A stretch of 36,742 nucleotides of DNA from a candidate division FCPU426 bacterium (lineage in GTDB: Bacteria > Oederibacteriota > Muellerivitia > Muellerivitales > Muellerivitaceae). Below the pieces are notes generated by a model, which saw only the letters and a program-made list of their open reading frames with translations, ran no database searches and had not been told where the DNA came from. The stretch covers positions 1-36,742 of the forward strand of contig JASHNQ010000088.1 of NCBI GenBank assembly GCA_030041545.1. The letters run 5' to 3'. The translations under genes were made by a program, and so were the position numbers. Below, piece by piece: positions 25,376 through 35,138 of this stretch (positions are counted from its first letter, which is position 1; each line of letters starts with the position of its first letter).

Positions 25376-25837
25376 ATGTTCCGTAAATTTAAGTTTGAGC
25401 AGGATTTTTACGACAAACTCCGCTGCATCCCCTTTTCCACCCGCTATAAGCTCGACCTGGCGGGCGTGAAGCTTTCCCTCAAAAGCTGGAACCTCTTCTC
25501 CGAGGAGGAACGGGCCAAACTTTGCGAAATGGATGCCGAAGGCCCGGAATCCGCCCATTACCGGGAACTATTGGTTTCCCTGATTCAAAAGCTCGGCGAA
25601 ACGGCCAAATTCCTAGAGCCAGCCCAACTCGACCAAGAAAAAGCCCAATGGGGAAACCCAGATCATATTCCCGCTGATATATCGTCTAAGATTTCGCAGT
25701 TGGGATTAGAAATCCGGCCGGAAGACTGGAAAAAGTTGGATACTCTGCAGCGTTTCGTATTGTTCAAGCTTTCTCAAGGTAAACACGACCACGTCAACTT
25801 GGGACCCGCATTGAAGGAATTTTTAAAGGATTATTGA
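25376..25837 (+). CDS. Nitrate reductase associated protein, copy 1
   Basis: The 153-aa soluble protein begins FRKFKFEQDFYDKLRCIPFSTRYKLDLAGVKLSLKSW and belongs to the small family named for its association with cyanobacterial nitrate reductase genes. Its biochemical role is unknown. A diverged second copy lies at 32938-33420; both share the FR-FKFE N terminus, P-ST--KL, the ---L---W--- spacing and the late W-KLD--RF-L-K block. Here the gene lies between mobA and the nitrate reductase operon, next to an outer-membrane gene on the other strand. Confidence 0.82.
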   Translation: MFRKFKFEQDFYDKLRCIPFSTRYKLDLAGVKLSLKSWNLFSEEERAKLCEMDAEGPESAHYRELLVSLIQKLGETAKFLEPAQLDQEKAQWGNPDHIPADISSKISQLGLEIRPEDWKKLDTLQRFVLFKLSQGKHDHVNLGPALKEFLKDY

Positions 25838-27939: not shown

Positions 27940-27969
27940 TTACCATTGCCCGGAAGTTCGAGGTTTACC

Positions 27970-30108
27970 ATGACGCTTTCCATGCAACCGGCCGTCTCGG
28001 GTTGGGAACCGGGGCTCAGCCGTTTCAACACCCACTGCAGTTACTGCGCGCTGCAATGCGCCCTCAAGATGAAGGTGGATACCGCCCAAAACCGGGTCAT
28101 CAAGGTCTGGGGGCGGCGGGACTTCCCCACCAACCGGGGCCTCTCCTGCGTCAAGGGCCAAACCGCCCACCAGCAAATCAACCATGCCGACCGCCTGACC
28201 CAGCCCCTGCTTCGCGAAGGAAAGGAAGGCCCTTTCCACGAGGTTTCCTGGGATGAAGCCCTGGATTTCACGGCCCAACAACTCCAGGAGGTCCAGAAAA
28301 CCCACGGCGCTGATTCAGCGGCGGTCTTCGGCGGCGGTGCCCTAACCAACGAGGCGGTGTACCTGTTGGGCAAATTCGCCCGCGTGGCCCTTAAAACCCG
28401 CAACATCGACTACAACGGCCGCTATTGCATGTCCTCAGCCGCCGCGGCCCAAAACACCTCTTTCGGCGTGGACCGGGGCCTGAATTTCCCCCTCTCCGAC
28501 ATCCTGGAATCCCGTTGCATCCTCCTGGTGGGGGCCAACGTGGCCGAATGCCTTCCACCCATCCAGGTTTTCCTCAAGCGGGCCCAAAAACACGGGGCCC
28601 GGCTGATCGTGGCCGATCCGCGTCACTCCAAAACTTCCGAGATCGCGGATTTGAAGCTCATGCCCCGCCCAGGCACGGACTCGGCCTTGGCCTTGGCCCT
28701 TTTGGCGGAAGTGGTGGCCCAGGGGGGCGTGGACCAGGATTACTTGAACCTTCGGGTCACGGGGTTCGATCCGGTTTTAGCCTTTGCCCGCGGCTTTGAC
28801 GCCAAATGGGGTGAGAAAATAACGGGCGTCCCGGACCTTTTGATCAGCCAGGCCGCGAACTGGCTCATCCGTTTCAAGCCTTCCCTCATCCTCACCGGCC
28901 GGGGCGCGGAGCAGCACAGCAAGGGCGTGGACACGGTCCAGGCCTTCATCAACCTGGCGCTGGCCTTGGGACAAGTGGGAAAGCTGGGCGGGGGCTTCGG
29001 CACATTGACCGGCCAAGGCAACGGCCAGGGCGGCCGGGAACACGGCCAAAAGGCCGACCAGCTCCCAGGCTACCGCCTGATTGAAAACCAAAAGGACCGC
29101 GAAACCGTTGCCAAGGCCTGGGGCATTGAGGAAAAAGACCTTCCCCGTAAGGGGTTGTCCGCACAGGAAATCCTTCAAGCCGCCGATACCGGTGCCATCA
29201 AAGCCATGTGGGTGGTGGGTTCCAACCCGGCAGTGTCCGCGCCCAACGGAAACCGGATGAAAAACGCCCTGTCCAACCTGTCTTTCCTGGCGGTCTCGGA
29301 TTTCTTCTTTTCCGAAACCTGCCAAGCCGCCCAGGTGGTCTTCCCCGCCACCCTCTTCGCGGAAGAAGACGGCACCATGACCAATATCGAGGGCCGTTGT
29401 GTGTTGCGCCGCGCGGGCGTGAAACCGCCCGGCCAGGCCCGCGCGGACTGGAAGGTGATCGTGGGCTTGGCCCAAAGATTGGGCGCGGGCAAATACTTTG
29501 ATTTCCCCAACACCGAAGCCATTTTCAACGAACTGGCGCGGGTGACCGCCGGTTCCCGCGCCGATTACAGCGGCATGAACTACAGCAAACTGGAGCGCAA
29601 CAAGGGGCTTTTTTGGCCCTGCCCCGACGCCAACCATGCCGGGACGCAGCGGCTTTTTGAATATGCCTTCTTCCACCCGGACGGCAAGGCCAAGATGCGG
29701 CTGGTGGAGAACAAAGAAAGCGCCGAGATGCCCGATGAAACTTATCCCTACCGCCTCACCACCGGGCGCGTCCTGGAACATTACCTCTCAGGCAACCAAA
29801 CCCGGCGGATTGCGCCTTTGATGGCCGCCATCTCCGAGCCCTTCGTGGAAGTCAGCGAAAAGTTGTCGCAGAGGCTGGGTCTGAATCCTGGCCGGAAAGT
29901 GACCTTGGAAACCCGCCGGGGCAAGGTCAGCCTGGCTTGGAAGGCCAGCGCCCACCAGGAGGAGTCCACCCTTTTCGTGCCTTTCCATTGGGGTGGGGAG
30001 AAGTCGGTGAACCTCCTGACCCAGGAGGCGCTGGACCCGGTGAGCCGCATGCCGGAGTTCAAGGTTTGCGCGGCCAACTTGACGCAGGACGGGGCCAAGG
30101 AAATATGA
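27970..30108 (+). CDS. narB: Assimilatory nitrate reductase catalytic subunit (NarB/NasA type, Mo-bis-MGD)
   Basis: The 712-aa cytoplasmic enzyme reduces nitrate to nitrite. The N-terminal 4Fe-4S motif is C23-x2-C26-x3-C30...C60 (THCSYCALQC, GLSCVKG). The Mo ligand is Cys153 in NGRYCMSSAAAAQ. Molybdopterin-binding segments include ILLVGANVAECLPP, IVADPRHSKTSEIAD, LTGRGAEQHSKGVDTV, GKLGGGFGTLTGQGNGQGGREHG, VVGSNPAVSAPN and the C-terminal RLTTGRVLEHYLSGNQTRR. There is no extra C-terminal 2Fe-2S domain and no FAD subunit, so ferredoxin is the probable donor. ATG 27970 has GAGG six bases upstream and agrees with the sigma-54 start. Confidence 0.93.
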   Translation: MTLSMQPAVSGWEPGLSRFNTHCSYCALQCALKMKVDTAQNRVIKVWGRRDFPTNRGLSCVKGQTAHQQINHADRLTQPLLREGKEGPFHEVSWDEALDFTAQQLQEVQKTHGADSAAVFGGGALTNEAVYLLGKFARVALKTRNIDYNGRYCMSSAAAAQNTSFGVDRGLNFPLSDILESRCILLVGANVAECLPPIQVFLKRAQKHGARLIVADPRHSKTSEIADLKLMPRPGTDSALALALLAEVVAQGGVDQDYLNLRVTGFDPVLAFARGFDAKWGEKITGVPDLLISQAANWLIRFKPSLILTGRGAEQHSKGVDTVQAFINLALALGQVGKLGGGFGTLTGQGNGQGGREHGQKADQLPGYRLIENQKDRETVAKAWGIEEKDLPRKGLSAQEILQAADTGAIKAMWVVGSNPAVSAPNGNRMKNALSNLSFLAVSDFFFSETCQAAQVVFPATLFAEEDGTMTNIEGRCVLRRAGVKPPGQARADWKVIVGLAQRLGAGKYFDFPNTEAIFNELARVTAGSRADYSGMNYSKLERNKGLFWPCPDANHAGTQRLFEYAFFHPDGKAKMRLVENKESAEMPDETYPYRLTTGRVLEHYLSGNQTRRIAPLMAAISEPFVEVSEKLSQRLGLNPGRKVTLETRRGKVSLAWKASAHQEESTLFVPFHWGGEKSVNLLTQEALDPVSRMPEFKVCAANLTQDGAKEI

Positions 30109-30240
30109 ACCACGAAGACACTAAGGGCACCAAGAACGACAAAAACCAAAATTTGATTTTTGAAGTCTCCCAACATCATTGCTTTTGGGTGTTCTTAGTG
30201 CCCTTTGTGGGATGCGAAGCATCCTTGTGGTTCAAAACAA
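30109..30240. repeat. Nonamer inverted repeat with a nested palindrome between narB and the first P-II gene
   Basis: The left arm is CACGAAGA, CACTAAGGG, CACCAAGAA (30111-30136). The inverted right arm is GTTCTTAGTGCCCTTTGTGG (30191-30210). The right arm is interrupted by GATGCGAAGCATCC (30211-30224), a hairpin, and TTGTGG occurs directly on both sides of it (30205-30210 and 30225-30230). Confidence 0.8.
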
Positions 30241-30257
30241 GATAAAAGGAAACAACC

Positions 30258-30605
30258 ATGATCAAGGAAATCATCGCCGTTATTAGGACCGGAAAATGGG
30301 CCGAGACCCTGATCAAACTTGAGGAAATCGGCATCGTCGGATTCACCCGCCAGCGAGTTTATGGGCGGGGCAAGCAGCGCGGCCTTCGGTACAGCGCGGA
30401 CGGGGAGGAAAGCAAGGGCATCAGTTTCTTGCCCAAGTGGATGGTAACGATCGTGGTGGAGGATTCCAAGGTGGACGCGGTGGTGGCGGCGCTGGTCAAG
30501 GCCAACCGCACCGGGGAAATTGGGGATGGGAAGATCTTCATCTGCCCCGTGGCCGATTCCGTCCGCATCCGCACCAACGAGAGCGAGGAATACGCCCTCA
30601 ACTGA
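30258..30605 (+). CDS. P-II family regulatory protein, NifI2-like
   Basis: The 115-aa protein has the P-II fold: MIKEIIAVIRTGKWAETLIKLEEIGI, then GRGKQRGL opening the T-loop, WMVTIVVEDSKVDAVVAALVKANRTG, the ATP-binding B-loop GEIGDGKIFICPV and the C-loop RIRTNE. The T-loop lacks the uridylylatable Tyr of GlnB/GlnK. The FLPKWMVTIVV and GKIFICPVADSVRIRT segments look like NifI2, the archaeal nitrogenase-operon P-II. It lies 64 bp upstream of nirA. P-II proteins sense 2-oxoglutarate, ATP and ADP; the partner here is likely NirA, NarB or NarK (inference). AAGGA precedes the ATG. Confidence 0.88.
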   Translation: MIKEIIAVIRTGKWAETLIKLEEIGIVGFTRQRVYGRGKQRGLRYSADGEESKGISFLPKWMVTIVVEDSKVDAVVAALVKANRTGEIGDGKIFICPVADSVRIRTNESEEYALN

Positions 30606-30613
30606 TAACAAAG

Positions 30614-30644
30614 TTAGGAATTAGGAGTGAGGAGTTAGAAGTTA
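30614..30644. repeat. Tandem TTAGGAG-type heptamers
   Basis: TTAGGAA, TTAGGAG, TGAGGAG, TTAGAAG, TTA occupy most of the 64-bp gap between the P-II gene and nirA. The nirA ribosome binding site AAGGAGAGG follows. Confidence 0.7.
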
Positions 30645-30669
30645 AAACTCCAAACCCAAGGAGAGGCTT

Positions 30670-32361
30670 ATGGCGGTTGGGATTGACATCGAAAAAGTGA
30701 AACGGGAAGGCCTGATGGTGGACCTGGAGAAGTTCGCCCGGGAGGGTTACAAGTCCATCCCCAAGGACGACCATTACCGCCTCAAGATGCACGGGGTCTG
30801 CGCCCAGCGGCACGAGGGCTTTTTCATGATGCGTTTCCGCGTGACCGCCGGCCGGCTCAACCCGGACCAGATGGAGCGCGTGGCGGACCTGGCCCAAACC
30901 TACGCCAGCGGCTACGTGCACCTTTCCACGCGCCAAAACATCGAGCTGCATTCGGTGAAGATCGAGAATGTCCCTAAAATCCTCAAACAACTCGCCGAGG
31001 TCGGCATCACCACCCGGTCCTCCTGCGGGCACACCTTCCGCAACGTCATCGCCGGCCCCTGCGCCGGCGCCTGCCCCCACGAACTCCTCGATACCCGGCC
31101 CTGGGCGTCGGTGATCGCCAACATGGTGGTGAAACAATCCGATTACTACAACCACCGCCTGCCCAAGCGGCTGAACGTCTCCCTGGCCGGCTGCGCCAGC
31201 TGCGAGGACCCCGCCTTGGTCAATGACATCGGGCTTTCGGCCGTGAAAAACACCGCGGGTGAAACCGGCTTTTCCCTGCACGTGGGCGGGAGCATGGGGG
31301 TGACGCCCCGCCTGGGCTGGCTTTTGGAGGAGTTCCTGCCCCTTTCCGACGGCTTGCCGGCCTTGAAGGCCGTGGCCCATCTTTACATCCTCCACGGCGA
31401 CCGGTCCTCGCCGGCCAAGGGACGGCTTAAGTTTCTGGTGGAAGGCTGGGGCATCGGGAAATTCCGGGAGGAGTTCCGCAAGGCGCTGCCCGAAATGCGC
31501 AAGGCCGACAAGGACCTTCCCAAGGATTTTATCCCCGACCCCTGGCCGGAGTTCGACCCTCCCGGCGGTTCGGCTTTGGCCGTCCTGCCGGAGGGCGTGG
31601 AACCCCAGCGGCAGAAGGGCTTCTACCGCGTCCCCCTTTTCGTGTCCCTGGGGGAGATCCACCACGCCCATTTCAGGCGCCTCGCCCAATGGGCCCGCGC
31701 CCATTGCCATGGGAAGGTGCAGGTCACGAAAGAGCAAAACCTGGAGCTTCAATGGGTTCCGGGGGACCGGGTGACTGAAATTTGCTCCATGGCCGAGAAG
31801 CTCGGCATGCTTTCCTACGGCGTGAAATCCATCCTGGACATTCAATCCTGTCCCGGCACCAGCTTTTGCGCCCTGGCCATCACCAGCTCCCAGGGCGCGG
31901 CCGGGAGCCTGCTGCAATACCTGAGGGACCGGCAGGTGCTGGGCGACCCGGATTTGAAGCCCTTAAGGCTCCATATTTCCGGCTGTCCCAACAGCTGCAC
32001 CCAGCACCAGGGCGCGGATATCGGCTATTCGGGCGGCATGGTCAAGGTGGGCGAGGACCAGCGGTTCGCCTACCAGCTCTGGCTGGGCGGCCGGCTGGGG
32101 GCTGAAGCCCAAATCGGGGTCATGGCAAAAAAGGCCATCGCCGACGAGATGGTGGTACCGGTCACCGACGCGCTTTTCACGGTCTTCAAACGCGACAAGG
32201 AAGCTGTTGAGACTTTTCAAAGTTTCCTGGGACGAATCACGATTCCGGAGGTCGTGAAGCGCCTGGACTCTTTGTTGGTGGAGAAGGGTTTGAGCCCCAC
32301 CACGTACAACCGGGTCAGTGCCTCGCCTATGGAGGGCCTGCGCATGATCCCAGGCGGCTGA
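30670..32361 (+). CDS. nirA: Ferredoxin-dependent nitrite reductase (siroheme, 4Fe-4S)
   Basis: The 563-aa enzyme of the nitrite/sulfite reductase family reduces nitrite to ammonium. There are two pseudo-symmetric halves, each with a ferredoxin-like and a hemoprotein domain. The siroheme/4Fe-4S cysteines are C394 and C400 (CPGTSFC) and C439 and C443 (SGCPNSC). Substrate and siroheme contacts are suggested by HLSTRQNIELHSV and VTKEQNLELQWV. Sulfite reductase activity cannot be excluded by motif alone, but the nitrate context argues for nitrite. AAGGAG precedes ATG 30670. Confidence 0.92.
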   Translation: MAVGIDIEKVKREGLMVDLEKFAREGYKSIPKDDHYRLKMHGVCAQRHEGFFMMRFRVTAGRLNPDQMERVADLAQTYASGYVHLSTRQNIELHSVKIENVPKILKQLAEVGITTRSSCGHTFRNVIAGPCAGACPHELLDTRPWASVIANMVVKQSDYYNHRLPKRLNVSLAGCASCEDPALVNDIGLSAVKNTAGETGFSLHVGGSMGVTPRLGWLLEEFLPLSDGLPALKAVAHLYILHGDRSSPAKGRLKFLVEGWGIGKFREEFRKALPEMRKADKDLPKDFIPDPWPEFDPPGGSALAVLPEGVEPQRQKGFYRVPLFVSLGEIHHAHFRRLAQWARAHCHGKVQVTKEQNLELQWVPGDRVTEICSMAEKLGMLSYGVKSILDIQSCPGTSFCALAITSSQGAAGSLLQYLRDRQVLGDPDLKPLRLHISGCPNSCTQHQGADIGYSGGMVKVGEDQRFAYQLWLGGRLGAEAQIGVMAKKAIADEMVVPVTDALFTVFKRDKEAVETFQSFLGRITIPEVVKRLDSLLVEKGLSPTTYNRVSASPMEGLRMIPGG

Positions 32362-32371
32362 AAGACTGCCG

Positions 32372-32445
32372 CAGGCATCAGGGCTCAGGTTTCAGATGTC
32401 AGTAAAGTCTTGAAAGCCATTGCTGATACCTGACGCCTGATACCT
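32372..32445. repeat. CAGG heptamer inverted repeat after nirA
   Basis: The left arm is CAGGCAT, CAGGGCT, CAGGTTT, CAGATGT, CAG (32372-32402). The right arm (32423-32445) reads, on the opposite strand, as AGGTAT, CAGGCGT, CAGGTAT, CAG. The loop is about 20 nt. The gap up to the next gene at 32520 shows no gene. Confidence 0.8.
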
Positions 32446-32519
32446 ACAAGTAAAGGCTGCAAGTCCTCCCTTCCCTCTTGGGCAAGGTTGGACCAAAATT
32501 TTTGGAAGGAGCTAAATTC

Positions 32520-32837
32520 ATGAAAATGATCCGAGCGATTGTCCGGCCTGAAAAAGAGGCGGACGTGGTGAAAAACCTGGAAAAGTCGGGCTTCACGGCC
32601 CTGACCAAGATGGACGTGCTGGGCCGCGGCAAGCAAAAGGGCATCCAGGTAGGGTCGGCCAAGTACGATGAATTGGCCAAGACCTTGTTTATGCTGGTGG
32701 TGGAGGACGAGGAATTTCCCCGCGCCATGGACGCGCTTAAGACCGGGGCCCGCACGGGCAACCCGGGCGACGGCAAGATCTTCGTCACGGACGTGGACGA
32801 GGCCACGACCATCCGCACCGGCGAGAAAACGCTTTGA
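32520..32837 (+). CDS. P-II family regulatory protein, NifI1-like
   Basis: The 105-aa P-II protein begins MKMIRAIVRPEKEADVVKNLEKSGF and has DVLGRGKQKGIQVGSAKYDELAKTLFMLVVEDEEF, GNPGDGKIFVTDVDEATTIRTGEKTL. The GRGKQKGI, YDELAKT-LMLVVEDE and T-IRTGE pattern is that of NifI1. The T-loop is short and lacks the modified Tyr. ATG 32520 follows GGAAGGAG. Together with the NifI2-like gene it brackets nirA. In methanogens NifI1 and NifI2 act as a complex that inhibits nitrogenase unless 2-oxoglutarate is high. Confidence 0.88.
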   Translation: MKMIRAIVRPEKEADVVKNLEKSGFTALTKMDVLGRGKQKGIQVGSAKYDELAKTLFMLVVEDEEFPRAMDALKTGARTGNPGDGKIFVTDVDEATTIRTGEKTL

Positions 32838-32921: not shown

Positions 32922-32937
32922 CAAAAGGACTTTGGAA

Positions 32938-33420
32938 ATGTTCCGTCAATTCAAATTCGAGGAAAGGCTTTACCAAAAGCTCGACCAAATTCCCATTTCC
33001 ACCCAATTCAAACTGGAAACCTTGGGTCTGGAACTTCCCCTGGAAGTCTGGACCCAGTTGGTTCCGGCGGAGCGTTGGGTTTTCTGCCACCTGCCCATCC
33101 GAAGCAAGGGGGAAAAGGAATGTTACAACGGCTACCTCGCCTATATCCTGCGGCGCCACGGGTTTCCCCTGCCGCCCGAACGCGATACCGCGTCCCCGGA
33201 GAAAAAAGCCTGGGAGGACCTTTCCCGGCTGCCTTCGGAGGTAGCCCTCAAGATGAGGGAGCTCAACTTGCCGCTCTTTTGGCCCGAATGGATCAAGTTG
33301 GACGACATGGAACGGTTCAGCCTTCACAAATTTTGCAGGGAAAATTCCGACGACGCCCTCATCCAGCAGGTCGTCCAGGAATTCCTGGGCCTCGCCAGCG
33401 TTCCCTCCGCCACGCCTTGA
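32938..33420 (+). CDS. Nitrate reductase associated protein, copy 2
   Basis: The 160-aa protein is a paralogue of 25376-25837, with FRQFKFEERLYQKLDQIPISTQFKLETLGLELPLEVW at the N terminus and LFWPEWIKLDDMERFSLHKF near the C terminus. The function is unknown, but the family's known neighbourhood is assimilatory nitrate reductase, as here. The central part (RHGFPLPPERDTASPEKKAWED) differs from copy 1. ATG 32938 has AAAGGA eight bases upstream. It is the last gene before the narK promoter. Confidence 0.82.
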   Translation: MFRQFKFEERLYQKLDQIPISTQFKLETLGLELPLEVWTQLVPAERWVFCHLPIRSKGEKECYNGYLAYILRRHGFPLPPERDTASPEKKAWEDLSRLPSEVALKMRELNLPLFWPEWIKLDDMERFSLHKFCRENSDDALIQQVVQEFLGLASVPSATP

Positions 33421-33642: not shown

Positions 33643-33686
33643 CTAACGGAAACCGCTTTTGATCCATCGTGCTTCCGGAGGAGCCT

Positions 33687-35138
33687 ATGCCGTCCATGAC
33701 CGAGGAAAAAACGCTGGCGCTTTCCCGTGGCGGCCAGCCGTCCCTTTCCTCGCCCTACACGATCGAACATTGGGAACCCGAAGACGGGGCTTTTTGGGAG
33801 AAGACCGGCAAAAAAATAGCGGCCCGCAACCTGGCCTTTTCCATCTTCGTGGAGTTCCTGGGGTTCTCGGTGTGGCAGGTCTGGAGCGCGGTGGCGGCCC
33901 AGCTGCCCAATGTGGGTTTTAATTTCAGCGTCAACCGGCTCTTCTGGCTGGCGGCCCTTCCCGGCCTCTCGGGGGCCACCCTGCGCATGCCCTATGGCCT
34001 GGCGGTCTCCTGGTTCGGCGGCCGCAACTGGACCCTGGTGAGCGCGGCCCTGCTGTTGATCCCCGCAACGGGCTTGGCCCTGGCGGTCCAGGATCCGGCT
34101 ACCCCTTACTGGGTTTTCATGCTCCTGGCCTTCGTGACCGGCTTCGGAGGGGGCAACTTCGCCTCCAGCATGGCCAATATCCAGTTCTTTTTCCCCCAAA
34201 AGAAAAAAGGCCTGGCCCTGGGCTTGAACGCGGCTGGCGGCAATATCGGGGTCTCCGTGGTGCAGTTCCTGGTGCCCATCGTCATCGCCAGCGCCGTCTT
34301 TGGCGGACTGGGCGGCCCCCCCCAGACCGCGGTCGTGAACGGCGTTACCAAGACCCTCTGGCTACAGAACGCGGCCCTGATTTGGATTCCCCTGATCCTG
34401 CTTTCCCTTTTCACCTCGTGGTTTTTCATGAACAACCTTCATGTCGCCAAATCCTCCCTGGCCGAACAACTCCCCATCCTGGGGAACAAGCACAACTGGA
34501 TCATGAGCTGGCTGTACCTGGGCACCTTCGGCTCCTTCATCGGCTACTCGGCGGGTTTCCCGCTGCTCATCAAGTCCCAGTTCCCCGGCGTGAACCCCCT
34601 GCAATACGCTTTCCTGGGGCCCTTGGTGGGCTCGGTGATCCGGCCCGTGGGCGGCTGGCTGGCGGACAAGGTGGGCGGCGCGGTAGTCACCTTTTGGAAC
34701 TTCCTGGCCATGGCCCTGGCCCTCTCCGGCGTCATTTATTTCGTTTCCCACAAGGCCGACCCCGGCGCCTTCATTGGCTTCTTTGCCATGTTCCTGGTCC
34801 TTTTCTTCTGTTCCGGCATCGGCAACGGATCGACCTTTCGGATGATCCCCGTCATTTTCCGCGCTCAGAAACTGCGTGGCTTGAAGGAGGCCAAGGAAGG
34901 ATCCGCCGCCTTCGCCGAAGCCGTCAAGGAGGCCAACAAGGACTCCTCCGCGATCATCGCCATCGTCTCCTCCATGGCCGCCTACGGCGCCTTCTTCGTG
35001 CCCAAGAGCTACGGCACCTCCATTGCCCTGACCGGAAGCCCGCTCTTGGCCCTGTTCACCTTCCTGGCCTTCTACGCCACTTGCCTGGGCGTGACCTGGT
35101 GGTTTTACGCCCGCAAGGGGGCCGAAGCGCCCTGTTAA
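33687..35138 (+). CDS. narK: Nitrate/nitrite transporter NarK (MFS, NNP family)
   Basis: The 483-aa major facilitator protein has about 12 membrane segments. The nitrate-signature glycine-rich helices are visible as GFGGGNFASSMANIQFFFP and CSGIGNGSTFRMIP, each with the conserved Gly-Asn pattern. The helix-2 region SGATLRMPYGLAV carries the substrate-binding Arg. The cytoplasmic N terminus is about 45 residues. ATG 33687 follows GGAGGAG. Import of nitrate for assimilation is the likely role; nitrite exchange is possible. Confidence 0.94.
   Translation: MPSMTEEKTLALSRGGQPSLSSPYTIEHWEPEDGAFWEKTGKKIAARNLAFSIFVEFLGFSVWQVWSAVAAQLPNVGFNFSVNRLFWLAALPGLSGATLRMPYGLAVSWFGGRNWTLVSAALLLIPATGLALAVQDPATPYWVFMLLAFVTGFGGGNFASSMANIQFFFPQKKKGLALGLNAAGGNIGVSVVQFLVPIVIASAVFGGLGGPPQTAVVNGVTKTLWLQNAALIWIPLILLSLFTSWFFMNNLHVAKSSLAEQLPILGNKHNWIMSWLYLGTFGSFIGYSAGFPLLIKSQFPGVNPLQYAFLGPLVGSVIRPVGGWLADKVGGAVVTFWNFLAMALALSGVIYFVSHKADPGAFIGFFAMFLVLFFCSGIGNGSTFRMIPVIFRAQKLRGLKEAKEGSAAFAEAVKEANKDSSAIIAIVSSMAAYGAFFVPKSYGTSIALTGSPLLALFTFLAFYATCLGVTWWFYARKGAEAPC

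Follow-up and report, generated by a model that had tools for sequence, protein, structure and literature searches.

Two genes for different P-II proteins of the NifI type, otherwise known from nitrogenase operons, directly flank the nitrite reductase gene nirA in a candidate division FCPU426 bacterium that carries no nitrogenase. The linkage, its conservation, the phylogeny of the proteins and their residues for binding nucleotide and 2-oxoglutarate are best explained, in our modestly confident view, by a NifI-type hetero-P-II that would bind the adjacent nitrite reductase directly and be released by 2-oxoglutarate. This suggests that the carbon/nitrogen switch of the NifI proteins has also been adopted for the control of nitrite and nitrate use.

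The window, i.e., the whole stretch of DNA analysed here (36,742 nucleotides), represents a complete contig (C19) of genome G000, which comprises 3.8 Mb and is 98.5% complete. Its forward strand carries, in this order, narM, NasC/NarB, the upstream P-II gene, nirA, the downstream P-II gene, a NarM-like gene and a NarK-type gene:

25376–25837, + strand: narM, nitrate reductase maturation protein (TIGR02664, 125 bits, above the cut-off of 110)
27970–30108, + strand: narB/nasC-type assimilatory nitrate reductase (NF047855, E 2.5e-253, below the curated cut-off; PF00384, PF01568, PF04879)
30258–30605, + strand: NifI2-type P-II protein, 115 aa, directly 5' of nirA (PF00543, E 1.5e-22)
30670–32361, + strand: nirA, siroheme nitrite reductase family, 563 aa, the presumed target (PF01077 and PF03460)
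32520–32837, + strand: NifI1-type P-II protein, 105 aa, directly 3' of nirA (PF00543, E 1.9e-25)
32932–33420, + strand: divergent NarM-like gene, the second in the window, flanked by the NifI1-type gene and narK (TIGR02664, E 5e-20, below the cut-off; PF09655, 76.6 bits)
33669–35138, + strand: narK-type nitrate/nitrite MFS transporter (TIGR00886, E 2.8e-92, and NF011608, E 1.2e-139, both below the cut-off; PF07690)

Both P-II genes, which a first, sequence-only reading had placed on either side of nirA, were found as ORFs at these coordinates and match PF00543. The start of narB was set at Met 27970 on the basis of its orthologs, the ORF itself opening at 27946. Shine-Dalgarno-like sequences precede the ATG of both P-II ORFs (aaaaggaaacaaccATG and ggaaggagctaaattcATG), and an imperfect inverted repeat, aaccacgaagacactaagggcac ... 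gtgccctttgtgggatgcgaagcatccttgtggtt, lies in the stretch that separates narB from the upstream P-II gene (30106–30257). A scan for promoters and terminators gave counts equal to or below those of shuffled sequences. The divergent NarM paralog has a counterpart in G027 (L048, 9950–10432). By reading of the ORFs, molybdenum-cofactor genes were assigned on the forward strand (moeA-, moaE- and mobA-like) and on the reverse strand (moaA-like).

For the classification of the two P-II proteins, trees were established with references from nifH-nifI1-nifI2-nifD-nifK clusters (other families of the phylum and other phyla), GlnB and GlnK of E. coli, Amt-linked GlnK from within the phylum and solved P-II chains. 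Among the solved structures the best match of the downstream protein was 9p1x_H (E 5e-31; the next match 1e-19), which is the shorter P-II chain in a complex with NifDK; the P-II chains of this entry can be regarded as NifI1 and NifI2 because it also contains a nitrogenase beta chain. A tree was required for the upstream protein, since its scores to a cyanobacterial P-II and to the longer 9p1x P-II chain were equal. In two trees the upstream protein clustered with nif-linked NifI2 (99/96 and 100/97) and the downstream protein was nested in NifI1 together with nif-linked NifI1 (100/99 and 100/96), so that the earlier naming as NifI2-like and NifI1-like was borne out and neither protein groups with GlnB/GlnK. 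An approximately unbiased (AU) test rejected a placement of the downstream protein among GlnB/GlnK (p=0.0015); for the upstream protein the same placement gave p=0.044 with the larger sequence set, which is borderline, and p=0.147 with the smaller one. Judged from sequence, the downstream protein is thus firmly assigned to the NifI1 type, and the assignment of the upstream protein to the NifI2 type is well supported, if less firm.

The ligand-binding residues, given in E. coli GlnB numbering, are largely retained: Q39, K58 and the GDGK loop (87–90) are present in both window proteins, the upstream protein keeps R101 and R103, and the downstream protein keeps R103 and carries Thr in place of R101, as do all nif-linked NifI1 sampled. 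Tyr51, the site of uridylylation, is a trait of GlnB/GlnK that is missing in some members. Both window proteins, which stand outside the GlnB/GlnK clade, lack it, as already read from the sequence; the alignment column holds K/R/E and A instead. The T-loop, taken as the segment between positions 37 and 58, comprises 18 residues in every nif- and nir-linked NifI1 sampled, including the downstream protein, versus 22 in GlnB/GlnK. The NifI2-type proteins linked to nirA in the family of the window genome do not have the long T-loop of NifI2; theirs comprises 22–24 residues, close to GlnB, versus 29–49 in nif-linked NifI2. A NifI1 T-loop of the nif form combined with a NifI2-type protein without the long loop would fit a different target.

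That both proteins are ordinary GlnB/GlnK that came to lie beside nirA by chance is a reading we reject as scarcely credible. The AU results for the upstream protein and its T-loop near GlnB length would agree with it, but this protein joins NifI2 with bootstrap values of 99–100, and the downstream protein is excluded from GlnB/GlnK both by the AU test and by its shorter T-loop.

Further P-II genes were met in the same genomes. The window genome has nine, including those on C6 (L012, 9649–10867), C18, C46, C97 and C86 (L012–L016); three of the nine form a tandem array close to KdpD-like and response-regulator genes. Ten P-II matches were obtained in G027 and eleven in G028. At L016 (7–1899) a glutamine synthetase gene adjoins the gene for an APC-type permease-like protein that carries a P-II domain at its C-terminus, and several genomes of the phylum contain P-II frames of similar length. 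A NifI1-like P-II gene flanked by urease genes and those of a urea ABC transporter was found in two phyla (L101, 2524–2850, in G015; L193, 6933–7259, in G714); the two proteins form a group of their own (99/86) that branches basally in NifI1.

A survey of nirA neighbourhoods demonstrated that the coupling is wider than the window genome, the case first noticed being one example: the P-II pair recurs in the family, and the same coupling occurs in two further phylum-level groups. Every nirA ortholog of the window's family is bracketed, at five intact loci and one that is split between contigs. The bracket spans six genomes of four genera; in G027, G025, G030 and G024 both P-II genes flank a NirA ortholog of 61–86% identity, and G028 harbors both halves on separate contigs. 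As the arrangement is the same in all five intact loci, with both halves in the sixth genome, it is not due to chance. At the G024 locus one P-II gene precedes nirA and the other follows it after a porin-like gene, with neither narB nor narK adjoining, which indicates that the linkage is to nirA. NirA/SiR paralogs of the phylum that are more distantly related had no adjoining P-II gene.

The nearest solved structure to the window NirA is the plant ferredoxin-nitrite reductase 3b0h (E 1e-58). The protein contains the NIR_SIR and NIR_SIR_ferr repeats of an assimilatory NirA and is encoded in a nitrate-assimilation context; its NCBIfam scores lie under the curated NirA cut-offs, which marks it as a divergent branch. 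Nitrite and not sulfite is assigned as its substrate from context only. The active-site segment of the window NirA reads SSCGHTFRN, and in NirA proteins of the P-II-linked clade (also L182, L179 and L093) SSCGHT or SACGHT replaces the TGMDN of ordinary NirA.

The two other phylum-level groups are a small one represented by G073 and G355 and a third one, the phylum of G304, represented by many genomes; with them, the bacterial phyla in which P-II genes are coupled to nitrite and nitrate genes number at least three. Their operons contain, in this order, genes for a NifI2-type P-II, a NifI1-type P-II, a NarK-type MFS transporter and, in most cases, a nitrite reductase with a further NifI1-type P-II gene behind it. 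This reductase, about 1070 aa long, combines a FAD/BFD front of the NirB type with a siroheme part of the NirA type. At no fewer than ten loci the NifI2-type P-II, as is usual in these groups, is fused to a PF00174 molybdopterin oxidoreductase, which is possibly a regulated nitrate reductase. Such fusions with the sulfite oxidase/MsrP-like domain were seen at L093 (10535–11722), L096 (3706–4533), L182 (11627–12781), L179 (5351–6457), L192 (7503–8633) and others. Oxidoreductase and P-II are encoded by separate genes at L188 and L191, and at L191 NirD adjoins NirB. NarB lies nearby at L177 and L190; L190 has the order NarB-NarK-P-II-P-II without NirA. The NifI2-type/NifI1-type pair occurs without a downstream P-II at L188, L190, L191 and L192.

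Enzyme and sensor apparently diversified together. Across all three groups, the NifI1 proteins linked to nir genes make up a single clade inside NifI1 (31 rows, 99/97). Within it, the two groups that have three P-II genes show separate subclades, 'up' with 100/98 and 'down' with 100/97; the clade of nir-linked NifI2 proteins is weaker (95/52). The nitrite reductases that are followed by a NifI1-type P-II, 15 in number and including the window NirA, all fall into one clade (100/99), apart from 43 other NirA/SiR proteins, which comprise 41 without P-II and two with upstream P-IIs only. The match between the NifI1 and nitrite reductase clades indicates that enzyme and sensor travelled together across phyla. 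As the loci of the third group were picked from P-II hits, this clade result describes the shared ancestry of the coupled genes and not how frequently P-II is missing from the clade. It is stronger evidence than a comparator of 40 NirA/SiR loci, none of which has a P-II gene; these are mostly sulfite reductase-like, only one with NarB, and make a weak control alone. A NirA-family protein of G193 (L137, 5176–6768), with no P-II gene within about 5 kb, is the sister of the P-II-linked clade and may show the state before coupling. Searches of plasmids returned only P-II proteins of less than 50% identity with the NifI1-type query and no match with the NifI2-type query.

The sequence-only reading had noted that the window lacks nitrogenase genes, and this now extends to the genome, in which no NifD/K homolog (PF00148) was found. 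The NifD/K family was likewise not found in any FCPU426 carrier, in the two f45 carriers and in 10 of the 13 carriers of the third group, which leaves 18 of 21 carrier genomes without nitrogenase. Both P-II genes of the window are linked to nirA and not to nifHDK. Their kinship to NifI1/NifI2 and the true nifH-nifI1-nifI2-nifDK clusters in other families of the phylum might suggest that they regulate a nitrogenase or are left over from a nif cluster since lost; we reject this as having next to no likelihood, given the many carriers without NifD/K, the separate clade of nir-linked NifI1 with its conserved ligand residues, and genome G445, one of the three remaining carriers, in which nifW, nifS and nifV are accompanied by a NifI pair distinct from the nir-linked set. 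G508, another of these three, also has both a nif-side and a nir-linked set.

In nif systems the NifI1,2 pair attaches to the MoFe protein, from which 2-oxoglutarate releases it. Structure 9p1x contains six NifK, six NifI2-type and 12 NifI1-type chains, hence two NifI1 per NifI2. By analogy, both window proteins would be NifI-type sensors from a branch that specifically serves nitrate/nitrite assimilation and would assemble together, with two NifI1-type subunits per NifI2-type subunit. At low 2-oxoglutarate, when nitrogen is plentiful, the P-II trimer would bind NirA and switch nitrite reduction off; when nitrogen is short, ATP and 2-oxoglutarate would free NirA from the P-II proteins. In the three-gene operons, two different NifI1-type proteins could fill the two NifI1 places. 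The idea of a hetero-P-II dedicated to nitrate/nitrite assimilation, already put forward from the window, holds up as a sequence-based proposal and is strengthened by the comparison over three phyla. More tentatively, a NifI-type branch in at least three phyla might control siroheme nitrite reductases directly, as NifI1,2 controls nitrogenase, with trimers of three different subunits (NifI2-type, upstream and downstream NifI1-type) in the three-gene operons, one of them tethered by the molybdopterin oxidoreductase fusion; we consider this extended version rather doubtful.

As targets, NirA, NarB or NarK had been suggested from the window. NirA emerges as the best supported of the three, with the bracket in G024 standing apart from narB and narK and the downstream P-II tracking one NirA clade; against NirA as the sole target, the P-II pair of the other two groups precedes NarK and is linked to the molybdenum oxidoreductase. 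The main rival explanation, which we deem unlikely, is that the pair controls nitrate reduction, through NarB or the P-II-fused oxidoreductase, or else the transporter of the NarK type, and that nirA is a mere neighbor. The NifI2-type and first NifI1-type genes directly 5' of the NarK-type gene in those groups, the PF00174 fusion and the operon at L190 would fit such a target, as would the cyanobacterial P-II, which inhibits nitrate uptake via NrtC/NrtD (PMC6603209); the G024 locus and the exact correspondence of the downstream NifI1-type P-II with the NirA clade speak against it. Both kinds of target could also be served, either by an upstream pair acting on transport or nitrate reduction and a downstream NifI1-type protein acting on NirA, or by mixed trimers acting on several operon products. 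We regard this as improbable: the well-supported 'up' and 'down' NifI1 subclades and the oxidoreductase fusion favor it, but the window's lineage has just one NifI1-type and one NifI2-type gene, both adjoining nirA. It is highly improbable, finally, that the P-IIs act indirectly, by titrating out another P-II or a transcription factor, and sense 2-oxoglutarate only for gene expression. P-II proteins commonly work via regulators, but no regulator gene is conserved in the P-II/nir operons, and the closest kin bind enzymes directly.

If NirA is indeed controlled directly, nitrite reductase itself would be subject to a carbon/nitrogen switch that acts post-translationally. With such a pair attached to another nitrogen reductase in organisms that lack nitrogenase, the NifI switch would be a general module for costly ammonium-producing reductases and not a nitrogenase speciality, and the natural P-II/molybdopterin oxidoreductase fusion offers a ready handle for biochemistry. 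In the open-access literature, to which the search extended (subscription literature and preprints being outside its scope), no description of a NifI-type/nirA coupling was found; a recent paper continues to define the nifI group by its linkage to nitrogenase operons (PMC8115048).

Among known systems, the NifI1/NifI2 proteins of nif operons (9p1x) are most similar: they belong to the same sequence clades, form a NifI1-type/NifI2-type gene pair next to a reductase, and share the NifI1 T-loop of exactly 18 residues, the missing Tyr51 and the conserved ATP and 2-oxoglutarate residues. The nir-linked pair differs in going with nitrite reductase instead of nitrogenase, in the shorter NifI2-type T-loop of the window's family, in bracketing nirA, whereas the nif genes follow nifH, and, in the two other groups, in having two NifI1-type genes and the oxidoreductase fusion. 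Cyanobacterial GlnB, which controls nitrate uptake via NrtC/NrtD, and mycobacterial P-II, which affects nitrate/nitrite use (PMC6603209, PMC11001197), share nitrate/nitrite assimilation as the presumed sphere of action; these are canonical homotrimeric GlnB/GlnK proteins, the cyanobacterial target being an ABC transporter, whereas the window proteins are NifI-type, paired and operon-encoded. In Nitrospira, too, a P-II gene lies in the same region as nirA, with glnK/glnB, glnA and amtB nearby; in the parts of the reports considered here, this P-II is called GlnK/GlnB and placed in an amtB-glnA region, with no mention of a NifI-type pair or a P-II fusion (PMC5767232, PMC6311188).
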